Origin: Massilia atriviolacea
GTDB lineage: Bacteria > Pseudomonadota > Gammaproteobacteria > Burkholderiales > Burkholderiaceae_D
Direction: 5' to 3'
Assembly (NCBI RefSeq): GCF_003953935.1
Contig: NZ_RXLQ01000029.1
Span: 1 to 41,538, forward strand
Length of the DNA: 41,538 nt
Of this stretch, positions 12,712-27,476 are shown one piece after another (position 1 is the stretch's first letter; each line of letters starts with the position of its first letter). The notes beneath the pieces were generated by a model. The model worked only from the letters and a program-made list of their open reading frames with translations. It was not told the origin of the DNA and made no database searches. The translations under genes and the position numbers were made by a program.

Positions 12712-13566
12712 TTGTATTTTTGGAAGCAACTTTCACCGTCCACACCGCACCGCCTCGCCGCCGGTACGGCTTTCGGCATGACCGACACCGGCACCGTACG
12801 CCCCTCGAACGAGGATAATTTCCTGATCGATGCCGGGCTGGGCCTGGTGGCCGTGGCCGACGGCATGGGCGGCCACGAATCGGGCGAGATCGCCAGCGCC
12901 GAAGCGCTGACCTCGCTGGCCCATTACCTGCGCGCCGCCACCGACCCGGACAGCGGAGCGCTCGCGCCCAACTTCCGCGCCAGCCCGTTCGACCCCGAAT
13001 CGACCGATCCGGACGCCATCTGGGGCGAGGAGACGCTGGCCAGCATGGTGACGCTGCACGAGGCGGTCGAATTCGTCAACCAGCGCATGTACCAGACCAA
13101 CCTGGCCGCGCGCCGGGGCGACGGCGGCGGCATGGGCACCACCCTCACCGGCGTATGGCAAGCCGAACCGGGCGCCCCGCTGCTGGTGTTCCATGTCGGC
13201 GACAGCCGCCTGTATCTCTACCGCGCCGGCGAGCTGACCCAGCTCACGCGCGACCACACCATGTACCAGGATGCGGTCGACGCCGGCGCCACCGAAAACC
13301 TGCCGCCCCGCAACCTGCTGCTGCAAGCCATCGGCCCCTCGGGCGACGTCCTTCCCGAGCTGCACATCCAGGCTGTCCAGCCCGGCGACCTGTACCTGCT
13401 GTGCAGCGACGGCCTGTACGGCGCCACCGCCGACGAGCGCATCGCCGCCGTGCTGGCCGACGCCCGCCCGGGCCAACTCGGCGATTGCTGCAAGGAACTT
13501 ATCGCCACGGCCCTGCACGACGGCAGCCGCGATAACGTCACGGTCGTCCTGTTTCATTGCGATTAA
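12712..13566 (+). CDS. PP2C-family Ser/Thr protein phosphatase
   Basis: 284 aa from a TTG at 12712, which sits 5 bases after AGGAG (12702-12706); an in-frame ATG at 12679 has no such site. All metal-binding motifs of the PPM/PP2C fold are present: TGTVRPSNEDNF, VAVADGMGGHESGE, GMGTTLTG, FHVGDSRLYLYR, LYLLCSDGLYG and SRDNVTVVL. Length and layout match bacterial Stp/PrpC-type enzymes that remove phosphate from Ser/Thr with Mn/Mg. It is soluble. Targets are unknown: the neighbouring sensor-HAMP-MFS gene suggests a membrane signalling link, and the only Ser/Thr kinase in the window is at 25290-27476. A TAGGAT (12660-12665) upstream may be its -10. Confidence 0.93.
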   Translation: MYFWKQLSPSTPHRLAAGTAFGMTDTGTVRPSNEDNFLIDAGLGLVAVADGMGGHESGEIASAEALTSLAHYLRAATDPDSGALAPNFRASPFDPESTDPDAIWGEETLASMVTLHEAVEFVNQRMYQTNLAARRGDGGGMGTTLTGVWQAEPGAPLLVFHVGDSRLYLYRAGELTQLTRDHTMYQDAVDAGATENLPPRNLLLQAIGPSGDVLPELHIQAVQPGDLYLLCSDGLYGATADERIAAVLADARPGQLGDCCKELIATALHDGSRDNVTVVLFHCD

Positions 13567-20641: not shown

Positions 20642-20672
20642 AAAAAAAACGCGCACATGATGTGCGCGTTAA
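20642..20672 (-). terminator. Intrinsic terminator of the sigma-54 operon
   Basis: AACGCGCACA (20648-20657), loop TGA, TGTGCGCGTT (20661-20670): a perfect 10-bp stem. On the minus strand it ends in eight T (plus A-run 20642-20649). It lies 47 bases beyond the stop of the haem protein gene, in the right direction to end that transcript. Confidence 0.9.
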
Positions 20673-20718
20673 AAGGAGACGACCGGTGTGGCGGTGGGCG
20701 CGGTGGAACGCCATCCGC

Positions 20719-21969
20719 CTATCGTCTTGCTGTAATCCTCGTTCGATCGAGGTTATGCGGTGTCGACGCCTGCTCCACTGGCAGCGCGTTGATGGTCAGG
20801 ATGCCCCAGATGAAATCGTTGGCGACGATATCGGCCGGGAGTTTGACGGTCCCCATCGGGAAGGCCGTCAGTTGTTTGGTGTACGGGCTGCCGTCGCGCC
20901 CGAAACCGGCGCTGGCGTGGCAGGAAATGCACGAGGAGCGCGTCAGCGGAATGCCGGCTCCCACGCGCTCGGTGAACGAGTTGCCGTGCATGAGCGGGGC
21001 GCCGTCGCGCGCCGTGAAGGCAATCTCGGACGCCTTGAGGCAGTAATTGTCCCAGGCCGCCGCCACGCGTTTGACCTCGAACAGTTTTTTCAGGGCCGCC
21101 GTCTTGGCGCAGCCGGCGTACTGGCGGTTCTGCGCCCCGCCCAGCGGCGCGATGCGGCGCCGGGTCGCGCCGTAGCTGTCGTTGCAGCCCATGGTGTCGC
21201 AGCGGCCGGGATTGAAGCGGTGCTCGAAACTGGCCCAGACCCAGTTCGGCGCGTCCTTGGAACTGACATGCATGGCCACCAGCGCGTAGCGGCGGCCCTC
21301 GACGAGCGTGGTGTAAAACGCTTCGCGCAGCTGCGCCGGGTTCTGGCGCACGCCGTTGCGCGCCAGCCAGGCGGCCAGGGTGTCGAACGGGACCCAGTCG
21401 GCCTTGACCTGGACCGCGTCTTCCGGCAGCGACACGCGCCATCCGCCCTGCGCCTTCTGGTACGCGGCGGCCAGCCCGGCCTGGGTATTGAGCTGGTTCT
21501 GCACGATGTAGCGGTACGTCGCGCGGTTGCGCCGCACTTCTTCGGCAAAGCACGGGACCTGCCCGGCCCGCCCCGACTGCACCGGAAAATTCCCGGCGGC
21601 GGCGTTGGCCACGACGCCGCAGTCGCTCTCGCCGGCCGCCGACTCGGCGCCGTGCGGCGCCAGTAGGCGCCGCAACACGCTCGCGCGCAGGCGCCGCGCC
21701 GCCTGTGCCGCCGGGCCGGGCCAGGCCGGGGTCTCGCTGTAGATGTCCTCGTCGGCGGCCCAGGTTTCGAATTCGACCCGGCCGCGCGACGCCGGCGCGA
21801 CGATGGCGGCGAAGTGCTGCCAGGCCAGCCGGTCCGAGTGCACGCCGGACGCCAGCACGCCGCCGCTGGCGGCCACCGCCTGCGAGGCGCGCGCCGGCAG
21901 GTCGGCCGCCAGCGCCAGCACGGCCATGAGGATCAGGATCCAGTCACGCAGCTTCAAGCAAGACTCCAT
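20719..21969 (-). CDS. Periplasmic protein with one c-type haem motif, function unknown
   Basis: 416 aa from ATG 21969. N-terminal signal sequence (about 8-28, WILILMAVLALAADLPARAS). One CxxCH haem attachment motif near the C-terminus (Cys347-Ile-Ser-Cys350-His351) followed by a Met-containing stretch (FPMGTVKLP, Met372 is a possible axial ligand). At least six other Cys (117, 140, 257, 262, 287, 310) could form disulfides. The first 330 residues match no family I recognise; bits such as WVWASFEHRFNPGRCD recall uncharacterised cytochrome-c-like proteins of soil bacteria. It overlaps the upstream gene by 26 bases, so it is the second gene of an operon controlled by the sigma-54 promoter at 22831-22848 and ended by the terminator at 20642-20672. 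Electron transfer or a haem-based role outside the cytoplasm is inferred only. Confidence 0.75.
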   Translation of the reverse strand: MESCLKLRDWILILMAVLALAADLPARASQAVAASGGVLASGVHSDRLAWQHFAAIVAPASRGRVEFETWAADEDIYSETPAWPGPAAQAARRLRASVLRRLLAPHGAESAAGESDCGVVANAAAGNFPVQSGRAGQVPCFAEEVRRNRATYRYIVQNQLNTQAGLAAAYQKAQGGWRVSLPEDAVQVKADWVPFDTLAAWLARNGVRQNPAQLREAFYTTLVEGRRYALVAMHVSSKDAPNWVWASFEHRFNPGRCDTMGCNDSYGATRRRIAPLGGAQNRQYAGCAKTAALKKLFEVKRVAAAWDNYCLKASEIAFTARDGAPLMHGNSFTERVGAGIPLTRSSCISCHASAGFGRDGSPYTKQLTAFPMGTVKLPADIVANDFIWGILTINALPVEQASTPHNLDRTRITARR

Positions 21970-22768
21970 AGGCGGTAATCCCGCTCGGCGGGGCCGACTT
22001 CTGCACCTTGCGGGCGGCGAACCAGCCGGTCAGGCGACCGTCCTGGCTGCTGATGATGGGACAGGACGCGCTCAGCATCGTGTTGCGCCCGCTTTCGCCG
22101 ACCAGCGCGCCGCCGCCGGCGACCACCGCGTTGCCGTGCGGGACAGCCACCAGCGCGCTCGGATAGCCGGTCAGCAGGCTGGTATTGGAAACGATGCGCG
22201 CTTCGAGCGCCACTTCCGGGCCGGTGCGGATGCCGATCACGAAGGCGGTGACGCGGGCCTGGTCGGCCGCGTCGTGCTCGCGCCCGGAGGCGCTCCAGCC
22301 GCAGATATTGCCGTCGGCCCCGATCAGCGGGTAGCTGGCGGTGAGCATATTGCCGTTGACGGGACTGGCGTAGTTATCCTGGGCGCCGCCGCCGGTGCCG
22401 ATCCAGCCGGCGCCGAGCTTGACGCTCACGCCCGGGTCGGACACCAGCGCGCTGGTGGCGGAAAACACCTGCTGCTCGATCTTCACCGGTTCGCCGTCGC
22501 GGGTGATGCGGATGCCGACCGCGTACACGGCCAGCGGGACCGGGTCGGCCAGGCCGAAGTCGCGTCCGGCCGCCGCCCAGCCGGTGTACACGCCGGACTG
22601 GTTGCGGGTCGGGTAGCAGGCGGTCAGCGTGTTCGAGGTGCCGCGGCCCATGTCGTAGGCGCCGCCACCGGTGAGCGTGAAGCCCGGCGGCAGCCACACT
22701 TGCGCCGTCGGCCCGGTTGCCCGGGTTGCCACTCCAACGAATGCATAACTTTCGATCACGATACCCAT
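21944..22768 (-). CDS. Three-repeat beta-rich protein, family unknown
   Basis: 274 aa from the ATG at 22768; an in-frame TTG at 22777 is less likely. The protein consists of three repeats of about 70-75 residues. Each has GGGA (34-37, 126-129, 218-221), then a T/S-A-x-x-P step (TACYP 49-53, TASYP 143-147, SASCP 233-237), then GW-x-A (63-66, 157-160, 248-251), and ends with a YAVGIR-like strand (82-87, 176-181, 267-272). Repeats of this style occur in uncharacterised secreted or adhesive proteins, but this one has no signal peptide, so it looks cytoplasmic unless exported another way. First gene of the operon behind the sigma-54 promoter; it overlaps the haem protein gene by 26 bases. No function is proposed. 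Confidence 0.75.
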   Translation of the reverse strand: MGIVIESYAFVGVATRATGPTAQVWLPPGFTLTGGGAYDMGRGTSNTLTACYPTRNQSGVYTGWAAAGRDFGLADPVPLAVYAVGIRITRDGEPVKIEQQVFSATSALVSDPGVSVKLGAGWIGTGGGAQDNYASPVNGNMLTASYPLIGADGNICGWSASGREHDAADQARVTAFVIGIRTGPEVALEARIVSNTSLLTGYPSALVAVPHGNAVVAGGGALVGESGRNTMLSASCPIISSQDGRLTGWFAARKVQKSAPPSGITAYGVLLEAA

Positions 22769-22830
22769 GTTCCCCAACTCTCTTCAACGGATTAGCTTCT
22801 TCCTGCCCGACAGGGCCGTGATGACATACT

Positions 22831-22848
22831 TAGCAACTAGCGTGCCAA
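22831..22848 (-). promoter_or_regulatory. Sigma-54 (-24/-12) promoter
   Basis: Minus strand TTGGCACGCTAGTTGCTA. It fits the YTGGCACG-N4-TTGCW consensus at every fixed position, with GG and GC exactly 10 bases apart (GG at 22846-22845, GC at 22834-22833). Predicted transcription start near 22821, about 53 bases before the ATG of the three-repeat protein. A divergent gene encodes a sigma-54 activator, which supports the call. Confidence 0.9.
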
Positions 22849-22867
22849 GCTGATAATAGGGGGAATA

Positions 22868-23029
22868 TGACATGCAAACTGGGTGTTCCTTGCCTCAACA
22901 CATGTCAACGAGCATGTAAATCCCGCCGAATTTACATGTCGCACGGAAAGATGGCGCAACGGTGCGTAGCGCGACTTCGACACCCGACGTGTCAAACACG
23001 TGTAAGCGTACGCCTCTTTACATGTCAAC
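22868..23029. promoter_or_regulatory. Cluster of ACATGT-type sites, probable enhancer for the sigma-54 activator
   Basis: Between the divergent promoters there are repeated cores: TGACATGCAAA (22868-22878), ACATGTCAAC (22900-22909), GCATGTAAA (22912-22920), TTTACATGTC (22931-22940), GACGTGTCAA (22986-22995), ACACGTGTAA (22996-23005) and TTTACATGTCAAC (23017-23029). Several are paired as TGTCAA...TGTAA. The stretch is visibly less GC-rich than the flanking genes and has no plausible gene. It spans about 22-181 bases upstream of the -24 element, suitable for enhancer binding. Confidence 0.7.
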
Positions 23030-23046
23030 AATGGATAGCCTTGCTC

Positions 23047-23052
23047 TATAAT
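23047..23052 (+). promoter_or_regulatory. -10 box of the sigma-54 activator gene
   Basis: Perfect TATAAT in GCTCTATAATTGGC, 36 bases before the GTG start. The -35 position overlaps the last repeat site (TTTACATGTCAAC), so the activator may control its own gene. Confidence 0.6.
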
Positions 23053-23088
23053 TGGCAATTACTAAACGCTGTACCATGGAGCCCTCTG

Positions 23089-24648
23089 GTGAATGATGTT
23101 GATAACACGTTGACGACGCAGCTTTTCTCGCAAAAGAATGGCATCACAAGTGCCTTGCTCGGCCTGACGATCCTGTGGCATCCGGACACCGAACGCATCG
23201 GCGAGCAGTTCCTCGGCCCGGCCGAGGAAGGCGCGATCGAGGTGTGCCGCTATACGCCGCTGTTTTTCCGGCCCGGCCAGGATGGCATCGCGCTCGGCCA
23301 CCGCGCCATTGCGCGCGCGCCGCTGACGGTACGCCGCAACGCCGACGACAGCGTCGACCTGGTCGCGCCCGACAGCCGCATGGCGCTCGAGGTCAACGGC
23401 GCGCTGCTGGCCGGCACGCGCCACTTTACACGCGACGACATCGGCGCCGGCGTGGTGCTGGGCCTGGGCGGCCAGGTACTGCTGTGCCTGCATTGGATGA
23501 CGAGTTTCCCGCGCCCCAACCTGTTCCCCGGTTTGCTGGGCGTGAGCAGCGGCGCCATCGCCACGCGCGAGCTGATCCGACAGGTGGCGGGCACCGACCT
23601 GGCTGTGCTGCTGCTGGGCGAAACCGGCACCGGCAAGGATGTGGCGGCGCGCGCCATCCACCAGGCCAGCAAGCGCAGCGCCAATCCGCTGGTGGCCGTG
23701 AACATGGCGACCCTGAGCGAATCGCTGGCGGCGGCCGACCTGTTCGGCGCGGTCAAGGGCGCCTACACGGGCGCGCAGGCGCCGCGCCAGGGTTTGTTCG
23801 CCGAGGCCGACGGCGGCACCCTGTTCCTCGACGAATTGGGCGATACGCCGGCGTCGGTGCAGCCGATGCTGCTGCGGGTGCTGGAAACGGGCTGCTACCG
23901 CCCGCTCGGCGCCAGCGCCGATGCGCGCACCACGGCGCGCCTGATCGCCGCCACCGACCAGGACCTGGACGCGCGCGGCTTCAACCAGCCTTTGCTGCGC
24001 CGCATGGAAGCGTTCGTGATCCGGGTGCCGACCCTGCGCGAGCGGCGCGAGGATATCGGCCTGCTGCTGGCGCACATGCTCAAGGGCTGCGACTTGTCCG
24101 CGGCCGAGATTGCCGCGTTTCCGCCGGCGCTGGTGAGCGAGATGTGTAATTACGACTGGCCGGGCAATATCCGCCAGCTGGCGAATGTGGCGCGGCGCAT
24201 GGTGATGGCGCTGCAGGCGGGCGAGCGCCCGGTGCTGTCGCAGTATGTGCATGCGCCGGCGGCGCCGCGTTCGGCCGGCGCCGGCTACGCCATGTCGGCC
24301 GAACAGCCGCGCAGCGCCAGCCTGAAAAACCCGGCCGATGCCGCGCCACGGCGCAAGCTGGCCGAGATCAGCAACGACGACCTGCTCGGCGCGCTGGAAG
24401 AACACGGCTGGCAGATCAGCGGCGCGGCCCAGCAGCTGGGTTTGTCACGGCCGTCCTTGTACAAGCTGATCGAAGCGCATCCGGCGATCCGGCCGGCGGC
24501 CCTGATCCCGCGCGAGGAACTCGACGCCGCCCTGCGCGCCCATGGCGGCGACCTGGCGCTGTGCGCCTCGCGCCTGAAAAACCCGAGCGAGGCGCTGCGC
24601 CGCCATTTGCGCGTGCTGGGACTCGATGCCAGCCCCGCGCAGGTCTGA
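23089..24648 (+). CDS. Sigma-54-dependent activator with FHA-like N-terminus and two Fis-type HTH units
   Basis: 519 aa from the GTG at 23089, 7 bases after GGAG (23078-23081). An in-frame start at 22867 would run through the operators and both promoters and add an implausible Cys-rich peptide. Residues about 20-135 look like an FHA domain ([15 protein letters not shown], then ISR-like [11 protein letters not shown] and a beta-rich remainder). AAA+ domain about 150-390: Walker A GETGTGKD (177-184), GAYTGA (224-229, a Tyr form of the GAFTGA sigma-54 loop), Walker B GGTLFLDE (242-249), and WPGNIRQL (357-364). C-terminus: Fis-like HTH (432-463, [20 protein letters not shown]) and a second, diverged copy (478-510, [20 protein letters not shown]). 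No response-regulator receiver domain. Inference: it is switched by phospho-threonine binding or phosphorylation, and activates the divergent operon. Its stop abuts the stop of the convergent unknown gene. Confidence 0.9.
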
Positions 24649-25293
24649 TCAGGCCGGCGCTACGCCGCCGCCCACTTCGCTTTCCGGCATGCACGCGACT
24701 TCGTCCGCCGCAGCGTCCGGATTGAGCGCCGCGATGGTTGGTGCGACCCCGCCGCCAACCTCGCTTTCCGGATCGAACACGAAGACGCGCTCGGTCGTCT
24801 CGCCGGAGGCGCGGGTGATGAGCACGGTGAGGACGAAGGAGACTTCCCAACGCCCGGTACAGGTGCCCACAGTCAGATGGTTATCCCATTTGAGCGCTTT
24901 TTTGTAATAGTGGGGATCATCGCTGTCGGCCTTGTCACGCGAGAACTGCTGCGCAGGGATCTGTACGCTGGCGCCTTTGATGCTGACATGCTCATTATCG
25001 ATAAATGGCGATGGCGGCGCATATGTCGGCAGCATGCCCGGCGCAATCGAACGAATCTGAGGACGCGTGATCAGGGTGCAGTCGAGCACCTGGAACGACT
25101 CGAATTTCTCGTAACCGCCGGCGCGGATGCGTACATGCATCCGCTCGCCGATCGTGAAGTAGATGGAGCCGGCATAGCGGCCCTTGACGGGATTGCCGTT
25201 GCCGTCCTTACGGCTGAACTTCCATTCCAGGGTCTCGCCGATCTGGTTAATATCGAAGTTCGCTTCCAGTAGCATCGATGTCGGTTTTTTCAT
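24649..25293 (-). CDS. Unknown protein with duplicated C-terminal PESEVGGGVAP peptide
   Basis: 214 aa from ATG 25293, which overlaps the kinase stop by four bases (ATGA), so it is translated from the kinase mRNA. No signal peptide or membrane helix. Residues 1-175 look like a compact mixed beta domain (MLLEANFDINQIGETLEW, YAGSIYFTIGERMHVRI, HYYKKALKWDNHLTVGTCTG, RWEVSFVLTVLI); I do not recognise the family. The last 40 residues hold an exact 11-residue repeat, PESEVGGGVAP, at 175-185 and 203-213, joined by an Ala/Asp linker. The two copies differ at six codons, all synonymous. By context it is a partner or substrate of the upstream kinase; the repeats could be docking or modification sites. 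Its stop touches that of the convergent activator gene. Confidence 0.7.
   Translation of the reverse strand: MKKPTSMLLEANFDINQIGETLEWKFSRKDGNGNPVKGRYAGSIYFTIGERMHVRIRAGGYEKFESFQVLDCTLITRPQIRSIAPGMLPTYAPPSPFIDNEHVSIKGASVQIPAQQFSRDKADSDDPHYYKKALKWDNHLTVGTCTGRWEVSFVLTVLITRASGETTERVFVFDPESEVGGGVAPTIAALNPDAAADEVACMPESEVGGGVAPA
24655..24771 (-). repeat. Duplicated 33-base coding unit for PESEVGGGVAP
   Basis: Unit 1 at 24739-24771 and unit 2 at 24655-24687 (minus strand). Both encode the same 11 residues. Five codons are identical and six differ only at the third base, so the peptide appears conserved while the DNA has drifted. Confidence 0.85.
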
Positions 25294-27476
25294 TTTTCGC
25301 CTTTGGTGGTGGATTGGATATAGCGGGAATCGCGCCGCAACGCGGTCAGGTCGGGCTCGGACCGGATCAGGCTGGCGGGATAACCGCGCTCTTGCGCGAT
25401 CGTCAACTCAGCCAGGGCAGCGTCCCGGTCACCCATGATTTCGTGCGCCATGGCGGCGCGGAAGCGGACATCCGCATTGCCCGGGTCGGCCTTGAGCGCC
25501 CGGCGGGTGTACTCGATGGCGGCCTCGCGGTCTCCCAGACGCGCCGAATACAAGCCCATGCGGGACATCAGCACCGGTTTCGACCCAGAGCGCTCAAGCA
25601 GCGGTTTCAATAGATTCACGGCCTGGCGATATGCATTGTTCGACGCGGCGGTGCGTCCGGGTATCCAGCGCAGGGTATCGCCCAGGTTAGCCCAGCGCAA
25701 GTAGTCGTTGGGGTTGCCTTTTGTGCCAGAAACCGATTCCTCAAACGCTTGCGCGGCGCCAACATAATCACCGCGATTGAACAGGACGTGTCCGAGGTTG
25801 TTGTAGAGCCGGCCGCTCGGGCGAACCTGTAGCCCCTGCTGCAACACTTGCAGCGCTTCATCCGACCGGTTCTGGCGCAACAGCGCCGAACTCAGGTTGG
25901 CATAGGCGATCACCGCATCCGGCTCCAGGGCGATGCTGCGGCGAAAGGATTGCTCCGCCGCCGGATACTTGCCCTGGTTATGGTAAAGCGTCCCCAACAG
26001 GTCGACAAACAGATGGTCGCGCCCATACATGCGCAGCGCGTCAAGCAGCGTTTGCTCCGCCTCGGGATAGCGCCGCATGCGCGTCAGGGCATCGCCCTTG
26101 AGGATCAATCCGAAGCGGTTCATCGGATCGAGCCGCAACGCCTTGTCGGCAAAATCGAGCGCTTCCGCGTCGCGTTGCTGTCCCATCCGGACGACGCCCT
26201 GCGCCGCGTACGCCAGGGCCAGCTGGTCGTTCAGTTTCAGCGCAAGCTGGGCGCTGGCGTCGGCACGCTGCAGCCAGACATCGTCGCGCGTGTCCCCCGT
26301 GTGGCGAAACGCGTAAGCCAGCGACACGCCGGCCGCCGCGGCGGCATGATCGGGCTGGCGGTCGAGAATCGAAGTGAAGTGGCGAATCGCCAGATCGAGG
26401 TTTTCGTCGCGGTCGAAATTCTTCAGCGCCGCCAGTCCGCCCTGCATGGCCGCCGATTCGGAAAAGAAGGGCGTGTGCCGTTCGAACCACTCGGACGAGA
26501 TCGCCACCTGCCTGGCGCCGATGGCGCAGGCCGCGACGGCGGCGGCGATCAGCGCGTAGCGGCGCGCCGGCGTTTTGAGCAGCAAGGCCGCCGCGCGGCT
26601 CCTGAGCGAGCGCACCGGCGGCGACGCAGGCAAGGCCGGCGGATCCGACGGCTCGCCGCCGAGCGCAGCGACGGCCGCGCTGACCGCCTGCATCGACCCG
26701 AGCCGCTCCGGCACATGGCGCGCCGTCATGGCGCGCACGAGCGCCACCACAGCGGGCGAGACATCCGGCGGAAACGGCCACACGTTGGACGAGGACTGGA
26801 TATGGGCCGCCGCCAGCGCCAGCCCGCTCAGGTGCGAAAACGGGCGCGTGCCGGTCAGCAGTTCGTACATCACCACGCCGAGCGCGTACACATCGCTTTG
26901 CGCGCTGAGCGTGGAACCCATCATCAGCTCCGGCGCCAGGTAGGCGATGGTGCCTTCGGTCTGGTCGATCACCACCGATTCGGTCGCTTGCGGGTCGATC
27001 TTGCGCGCCAGGCCGAAGTCCATGATGCGCACCTTGCCGCCCGGTTCGAGCATCAGGTTGGCCGGCTTGATGTCGCCGTGAATGAGCTTGGCGTCATGCG
27101 CTTCGCGCATGGCCTCGGCCACCTGGCTGACGATGTCGAGCACCTGGGCTTGCGGCATCGGCCCGCGCTTGCCCGCTTCGCGCAGGGTGCAGCCGTCGAC
27201 GAATTCCATGACGATCGATTGCTCGGCGGCGTCGCCCTCGATCGAGAAGATGCGCACGAAGCTCGGGTGGCGCAGGGACGCGGCGAGACGTGCCTCGTCG
27301 AGCAGGTTGTCTGGTCGCGTGGAAAGCAGTTGCGGCTTGAGCCGCTTGATGGCGATAATACGCTGGAGTTTGGAATCCCACGCTTCGTATACCTGCCCGA
27401 AGCCGCCCTCGCCCAACAATCGCTTCAGTTGATAATGACCGAGTTCCTGCTCTTCATGCTGCAAATTGCGCTCCAC
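25290..27476 (-). CDS. Membrane-anchored Ser/Thr protein kinase with TPR domain
   Basis: 728 aa from a GTG at 27476; an in-frame stop lies two codons upstream, so no earlier start exists. Hanks-type kinase domain (about 14-270): glycine loop GEGGFGQV (22-29), Lys44, catalytic HGDIKPAN (133-140), DFG (153-155), APE (181-183) and DVYALGVVMYELLTG. The catalytic loop is HGD rather than HRD, a non-RD kinase. One TM helix (about 306-325) follows a Pro-rich linker, then an outward region of tandem TPRs (about 350-715, e.g. AYANLSSALLRQNRSDEALQVL). This layout matches bacterial PknB/PknS-like sensor kinases. The next gene overlaps by four bases. Inference: it signals to the FHA-domain activator encoded convergently. 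Confidence 0.93.
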   Translation of the reverse strand: MERNLQHEEQELGHYQLKRLLGEGGFGQVYEAWDSKLQRIIAIKRLKPQLLSTRPDNLLDEARLAASLRHPSFVRIFSIEGDAAEQSIVMEFVDGCTLREAGKRGPMPQAQVLDIVSQVAEAMREAHDAKLIHGDIKPANLMLEPGGKVRIMDFGLARKIDPQATESVVIDQTEGTIAYLAPELMMGSTLSAQSDVYALGVVMYELLTGTRPFSHLSGLALAAAHIQSSSNVWPFPPDVSPAVVALVRAMTARHVPERLGSMQAVSAAVAALGGEPSDPPALPASPPVRSLRSRAAALLLKTPARRYALIAAAVAACAIGARQVAISSEWFERHTPFFSESAAMQGGLAALKNFDRDENLDLAIRHFTSILDRQPDHAAAAAGVSLAYAFRHTGDTRDDVWLQRADASAQLALKLNDQLALAYAAQGVVRMGQQRDAEALDFADKALRLDPMNRFGLILKGDALTRMRRYPEAEQTLLDALRMYGRDHLFVDLLGTLYHNQGKYPAAEQSFRRSIALEPDAVIAYANLSSALLRQNRSDEALQVLQQGLQVRPSGRLYNNLGHVLFNRGDYVGAAQAFEESVSGTKGNPNDYLRWANLGDTLRWIPGRTAASNNAYRQAVNLLKPLLERSGSKPVLMSRMGLYSARLGDREAAIEYTRRALKADPGNADVRFRAAMAHEIMGDRDAALAELTIAQERGYPASLIRSEPDLTALRRDSRYIQSTTKGEK

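Follow-up and report, generated by a model that had tools for sequence, protein, structure and literature searches.

Is a membrane Ser/Thr kinase that lies beside a sigma-54 activator in the genome of Massilia atriviolacea wired to that activator, and if so, what does the pair control? The question is raised by a stretch of 41,538 nucleotides, the window of this study, which is the entire contig NZ_RXLQ01000029.1 (C22 in a genome of 7.36 Mb in 80 contigs). A first reading, made from the sequence only, had joined six adjacent elements into one circuit, running from the kinase through an FHA-type activator to a sigma-54 promoter and the two genes that it drives. All of the elements are present and their neighbourhood is conserved in relatives; this much is confirmed. 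I propose that they probably form a locally wired cassette, in which the kinase signals to the FHA-type sigma-54 activator and the activator switches on rep3, the first gene of the operon. What did not hold up is the idea of a fixed two-gene output.

From right to left, the order is kinase, partner, activator (tail to tail with these two), rep3 (divergent from the activator), haemC and a terminator. The repeated sites and the sigma-54 promoter sit in the intergenic region between the activator and rep3. By window coordinates:

25290..27476, minus strand: membrane Ser/Thr kinase, 728 amino acids; N-terminal kinase domain, hydrophobic residues 308-326, C-terminal TPRs
24649..25293, minus strand: partner protein, 214 amino acids; predicted beta-sandwich, conserved DPE..VG tail
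23089..24648, plus strand: sigma-54 activator, 519 amino acids, GTG start at 23089; predicted FHA fold at about residues 20-140, AAA+ at about 154-308, Fis-type helix-turn-helix at about 434-459
22868..23028, no strand: cluster of activator-type sites; half sites at 22868-22878, 22900-22908, 22913-22921, 22931-22940, 22987-22995 and 22996-23005 (the last by eye)
23017..23028, no strand: full palindromic site TTTACATGTCAA, a motif shared with relatives
23025..23052, plus strand: sigma-70-like promoter of the activator gene, 10 of 12 matches
22833..22849, minus strand: sigma-54 promoter of rep3, TTGGCACGCTAGTTGCT (5' to 3' on the minus strand)
21944..22768, minus strand: rep3, presumed output protein, 274 amino acids; three repeats of about 85 amino acids, no hydrophobic segment
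20719..21969, minus strand: haemC, 416 amino acids, single haem site (CISCH); overlaps the end of rep3 by 26 nucleotides; accessory and frequently lost
20648..20670, minus strand: intrinsic terminator of the rep3-haemC operon, a stem and a T run

The cassette would work as follows. The kinase, held in the membrane with its TPR part probably on the periplasmic side, would sense a cue and pass a signal to the FHA domain of the activator; that it does so, and with what sign, I infer. The partner, cotranslated with the kinase, is probably an adaptor or a phosphorylated ligand. The activator would bind TTKACRYGTMAA enhancers in the stretch that separates its gene from the output operon and, through its GAYTGA loop, remodel the sigma-54 polymerase, turning on rep3 and, where it is present, haemC. 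At the last of its sites, the activator would also cover the -35 of its own promoter.

Do the genes stay together? Eight of the 16 same-genus genomes searched hold an activator of at least 71% identity, and in those eight loci (activator at 69-93% by tblastn) kinase, partner, activator and rep3 follow one another in unchanged order, adjoined in every case by mfd and serB. At L036, tblastn covers residues 326-719 of the kinase only, although an open reading frame of 723 amino acids is present. Further afield, named genomes were scanned with aligned N-termini of the activator, which brought up 71 loci, mostly from Oxalobacteraceae (Massilia, Duganella, Pseudoduganella, Undibacterium, Herbaspirillum, Janthinobacterium, Rugamonas, Glaciimonas, Telluria and bins), with five outlying loci, L116-L120. 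Downstream of the activator, 57 of the 71 carry a kinase of at least 40% identity on the other strand, with no more than 2 kb between the two genes in 55, and one further locus, L072, has it on the same strand. Among the 13 loci left without a kinase are four with less than 1 kb of contig remaining (L056, L066, L080, L096), two kdp-side paralogues (L088, L102) and the five outlying loci. The sequence-only reading had staked itself on a neighbourhood conserved in relatives, and in this it was right. The distribution of the activator is patchy, since a draw of 195 genomes from the family found it (E <= 1e-100) in only 27, belonging to 7 of 44 genera.

The sigma-54 promoter claimed upstream of rep3 is the sole exact match in the window to its consensus (TGGCACG-N4-TTGC, 22847..22833 on the minus strand). 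By itself the string was rejected as evidence: the genome holds eight exact matches, fewer than the 10 of the reversed pattern, and window matches with up to two mismatches are fewer than in shuffled sequence (20 against 27.65). The window promoter counts as above chance because a divergent promoter is conserved across loci. Seven loci of the window's own genus, one of them the window, brought the 71 to 78, of which 51 have a high-scoring sigma-54 promoter within 700 bp of the activator and facing away from it, by a score threshold fixed after the scores were seen. In the 74 loci long enough to serve as a control, the promoter was found in 51 as against 1 on the other strand, and random positions in the same loci gave a mean of 5.7 and a maximum of 12 in 200 draws.

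Between promoter and activator lies the palindrome TTKACRYGTMAA, exact in 38 of the 51 regions and within one mismatch in 47. Exact copies number 40 in 10,675 bp there and 6 in the other 963,877 bp of the loci, counts that are descriptive and no independent test, the palindrome having been derived by eye from the same sequences. The centres of the 40 sites fall 44-357 bp upstream of the promoter. The cluster of repeated sites seen earlier in the window is borne out by four copies (22900-22908, 22931-22940, 22987-22995, 23017-23028), and most of seven aligned relatives retain them. The last of the four is the only instance in the 7.36-Mb genome of the strict palindrome TTKACATGTMAA. A global regulon was considered and finds no support: relaxed matches number 38 against 72 in a reversed control, and no second cluster was seen among the 38. 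The lack of further strict sites argues against a regulon, yet is unremarkable, because chance alone should give fewer than one copy of so AT-rich a 12-mer in a GC-rich genome (an estimate, not a computed value). The -35 of the sigma-70-like promoter overlaps the same palindrome, which suggests that the activator represses its own gene; the TATAAT of that promoter is kept in five of the seven relatives.

The activator itself has what marks a sigma-54 enhancer-binding protein: the domains (Sigma54_activat, PF00158, E 1.1e-48; Fis-type helix-turn-helix, PF02954, E 1.1e-8), the GAYTGA loop with a Walker A GETGTGK, a linked promoter with sites, and in the genome one rpoN gene. The loop goes with the promoter. 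Wherever a promoter-bearing locus has a readable activator (50 loci), GA[FY]TGA is retained, and none of the nine activators without it has a promoter, for which Fisher's p of 2.9e-5 is too small, because the nine fall in about three lineages. Pfam finds no receiver domain in the window activator, so it is not an NtrC-type response regulator. A fold prediction, proposed in the earlier reading, indeed gives the N-terminus the FHA beta-sandwich that was expected there in place of a receiver, with EmbR structures among the fold matches. The hhalign figure of 100% for A7 against A5 is inflated, the window sequence being contained in both.

The same genome holds a full-length paralogue of the activator (52% identity; contig C34, L009, 7931-9391), by eye beside a kdp operon. 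It was rejected as a second copy of the circuit, being without GAFTGA, enhancer, sigma-54 promoter and kinase. Six sister genomes hold a similar lone copy, and the three examined (L042, L088, L102) also lack GAFTGA.

The description of the kinase as a membrane Ser/Thr kinase with a TPR part stands: it matches Pkinase (E 5.6e-52) and TPRs in Pfam, has a single hydrophobic segment, and carries the IAIK lysine, HGDIKPAN and DFG of a Hanks-type kinase domain. Its catalytic loop reads HGD instead of HRD in 51 of 51 kinases examined (those of loci with an uninterrupted long kinase match, the same 51 that were used for a mirror-tree), a fixed non-RD signature, and DFG is present in 47 of them. The start of the partner (25293..24649, minus strand) overlaps the kinase stop by 4 nucleotides, in keeping with the translational link claimed before. 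PESEVGGG occurs twice in the window copy. The partner was compared with the PixA/AidA family of inclusion-body proteins and does not match the family model PF12306, so that it was not accepted as a clear PixA member; modelling hints that it may be a distant PixA-like beta-sandwich.

Some loci differ at these two genes. By eye, a thioesterase-like open reading frame occupies the expected position of the partner in L077 and L100, and four tandem partner-like frames lie between activator and kinase in L099 (11487-13436). In a clade whose output is an FAD-dependent oxidoreductase (L076, L077, L081, L100, L104, L106), the first kinase, to the right of the activator, is immediately followed by another that shares about 30% identity with that of the window. 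A Ser/Thr phosphatase of PP2C type (PP2C_2, E 3.5e-10) is encoded at 12778-13566 on the plus strand of the window, 12 kb from the kinase; it is a possible antagonist that would reset the circuit, tied to the cassette by position only. L036 has a relative of it at 316-1107, near mfd and beside a small separate kinase (1817-2587).

What, then, is controlled? The three repeats of rep3 align pairwise with scores of 79-112, against shuffle maxima of 43-55. The protein has no match above cut-off in Pfam or NCBIfam, and none in PHROGs, PADLOC or sequences of the PDB. HaemC has one CISCH and a hydrophobic N-terminus, is probably exported, and has a weak PHROG match (E 8e-4). Its family, unnamed and with one CxxCH, is widespread (at least 111 homologues at E <= 1e-3) and extends to Terriglobus and Chromobacterium, so it exists outside the cassette. 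Complete haemC genes are found in only four of nine rep3 loci (the window, L033, L034, L035), and for that reason haemC is not core output. A remnant of 64 amino acids is left in L030-L032 (the same genomes as L051-L053), and the gene is absent from L036 and L037. The strong terminator said to close the rep3-haemC operon is there, a 10-pair stem followed by a T run with a folding z of -4.7, in a window with eight terminator-like sites where 5.6 are expected.

Over all promoter-bearing loci, blastp sorts the genes that directly follow the promoter into eleven clusters, four of them singletons (L039, L082, L090, L107) and seven found in at least two loci:

rep3: 10 loci, one broken
FAD-dependent oxidoreductase with similarity to tryptophan halogenase: 11 loci
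AAA_16-like protein: 10 loci
short protein with a hydrophobic N-terminus, in some loci with two companions: 7 loci
amine oxidase and peptidase-M61-N-like protein: 3 loci
400-amino-acid protein: 2 loci
small open reading frame, haem-oxygenase-2-like enzyme and radical SAM protein: 2 loci

The names come from Pfam, with one member scanned in most families. Genes were called with a simple codon scorer, which may miss short genes, misplaces the start of rep3 in the window and found no operon at L058 and L071. The last family (L043, 4208-6485; L111, 7589-9704), with its haem-oxygenase-2-like iron enzyme, resembles a modified-peptide cluster. A tree of 72 activators (L066, L080, L107, L108, L113 and L120 of the 78 are omitted) was given 13 output labels, among them 'none', the kdp paralogues and the outgroup. 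The labels change 15 times on it, where 12 changes are the least possible and shuffled labels need 49.3. Outputs thus follow activator clades and vary from one clade to the next. A single genome, G013, has two cassettes, each with a kinase, whose outputs differ (L035, L039). The circuit as first read survives in its neighbourhood, its FHA fold, its promoter with sites and its one rpoN. The two-gene operon, present in the window with its promoter, does not survive as part of a conserved machine, rep3 belonging to one clade and haemC being complete in fewer than half of the rep3 loci. More tentatively, I suggest a reusable switch, made of the kinase, a PixA-like adaptor, an activator with a degenerate FHA domain and a private enhancer, whose output slot is refilled with unrelated operons and whose FHA domain, in the rep3 clade, is gated by the partner in a non-classical manner. 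This is possible, and I would not call it likely.

Several observations, besides the reservations already attached to the promoter threshold, the palindrome and Fisher's p, weigh against the proposed cassette. The Pfam FHA model does not match the window activator and matches weakly in 6 of 65 aligned sequences, with a best E of 0.08. The two residues expected of a phosphothreonine reader are missing from the window domain, the Ser of SRxH being Ala75 and the Asn of S-x-N-G being Met98, and the pocket His is replaced by Pro in the window clade. Eighteen loci keep GA[FY]TGA and show no promoter, and 3 of the 27 promoter-less loci hold an exact TTKACRYGTMAA enhancer. No partner tail turned up in the clade with the FAD oxidoreductase. 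Finally, the r of 0.87 takes no account of species kinship, and the loci are not independent. Across the 65 sequences, position 75 is Ser in 54, Thr in 1 and Ala in 10, position 98 is Met in 61, and Arg54 is invariant and may be equivalent to the phosphate-binding arginine of the GR motif. Because the pocket is degenerate (Ala where 55 of the 65 have Ser or Thr), classical reading of phosphothreonine by the window domain is doubtful. With Ser75 replaced by Ala in the window clade, signalling there may pass through a modified contact of the FHA domain, and one that is gated by the partner or independent of phosphate deserves serious consideration.

The degenerate pocket would also suit a different account, in which the activator works at the rep3 promoter while the kinase and partner are a separate neighbour, the FHA domain answering some other ligand or serving only in oligomerization. 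Kinase and activator are convergent, not co-transcribed, and in L062 and L063 the kinase is more than 6 kb away. Against this account, 58 of the 71 loci pair the activator with a kinase of at least 40% identity although the output gene changes, and kinases of 33-34% identity stand beside three of the five outlying loci; I consider it unlikely, if deserving of some weight. Could the set instead be an anti-phage or conflict module, a kind of system in which kinases and STAND-like ATPases turn up repeatedly? Its kinase domain is matched by PADLOC kinase models, PD-T4-6 among them, and one output family is similar to AAA_16 (the L086 protein), but these are matches to generic kinase and AAA+ domains. 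For rep3, the partner and haemC, PADLOC gives no family at E <= 0.001, and I consider the idea quite improbable. The chance is slimmer still that this is a displaced regulator of the type VI secretion system (T6SS), which elsewhere is governed by kinase-FHA pairs and sigma-54 activators, according to a review (PMC10482370). The genome has three TssC/VipB matches, all on contigs C9 and C12 and none on the window contig, in agreement with the earlier remark that no secretion genes are nearby. Nor does the strict enhancer, or any excess of relaxed matches over the control, point elsewhere in the genome, and none of 20 output-side proteins scanned with Pfam matches a T6SS family. A cassette wired from kinase to activator to local output remains the reading I prefer.

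FHA activators and kinase-regulated regulators are already known. EmbR of Mycobacterium tuberculosis is an FHA-bearing DNA-binding regulator controlled by the Ser/Thr kinase PknH, and in this it resembles the proposed cassette. Unlike the window regulator, which is a sigma-54 activator with a degenerate pocket, EmbR has a canonical FHA pocket and does not belong to the sigma-54 activators. Jelsbak, Givskov and Kaiser are said to have described, in 2005, FHA-domain enhancer-binding proteins in Myxococcus xanthus; the likeness lies in the joining of FHA domain and sigma-54 activator. On the window side, the only one examined in this comparison, the domain is missed by Pfam FHA, kinase and partner genes adjoin, and the strict enhancer is single-copy. 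VtsR of Vibrio alginolyticus also carries an FHA domain. According to the review PMC10482370, the Ser/Thr kinase PpkA2 acts on VtsR in T6SS2, which is the likeness to the cassette; the window differs in a contig free of T6SS genes, a kinase with a TPR tail and a predicted output that is a local operon. Among open-licence papers of PubMed Central, no paper on this cassette was found, and control of sigma-54-type regulators by Ser/Thr kinases or FHA domains appeared in no other setting than type VI secretion and the development of myxobacteria.

Because the cassette is small, carries a distinctive enhancer and turns up with differing outputs, a few isogenic strains would be enough to test how it is wired. 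Its enhancer-promoter signature, moreover, gives a candidate target at each of 51 loci, oxidases and a cluster of radical-SAM peptide type included.

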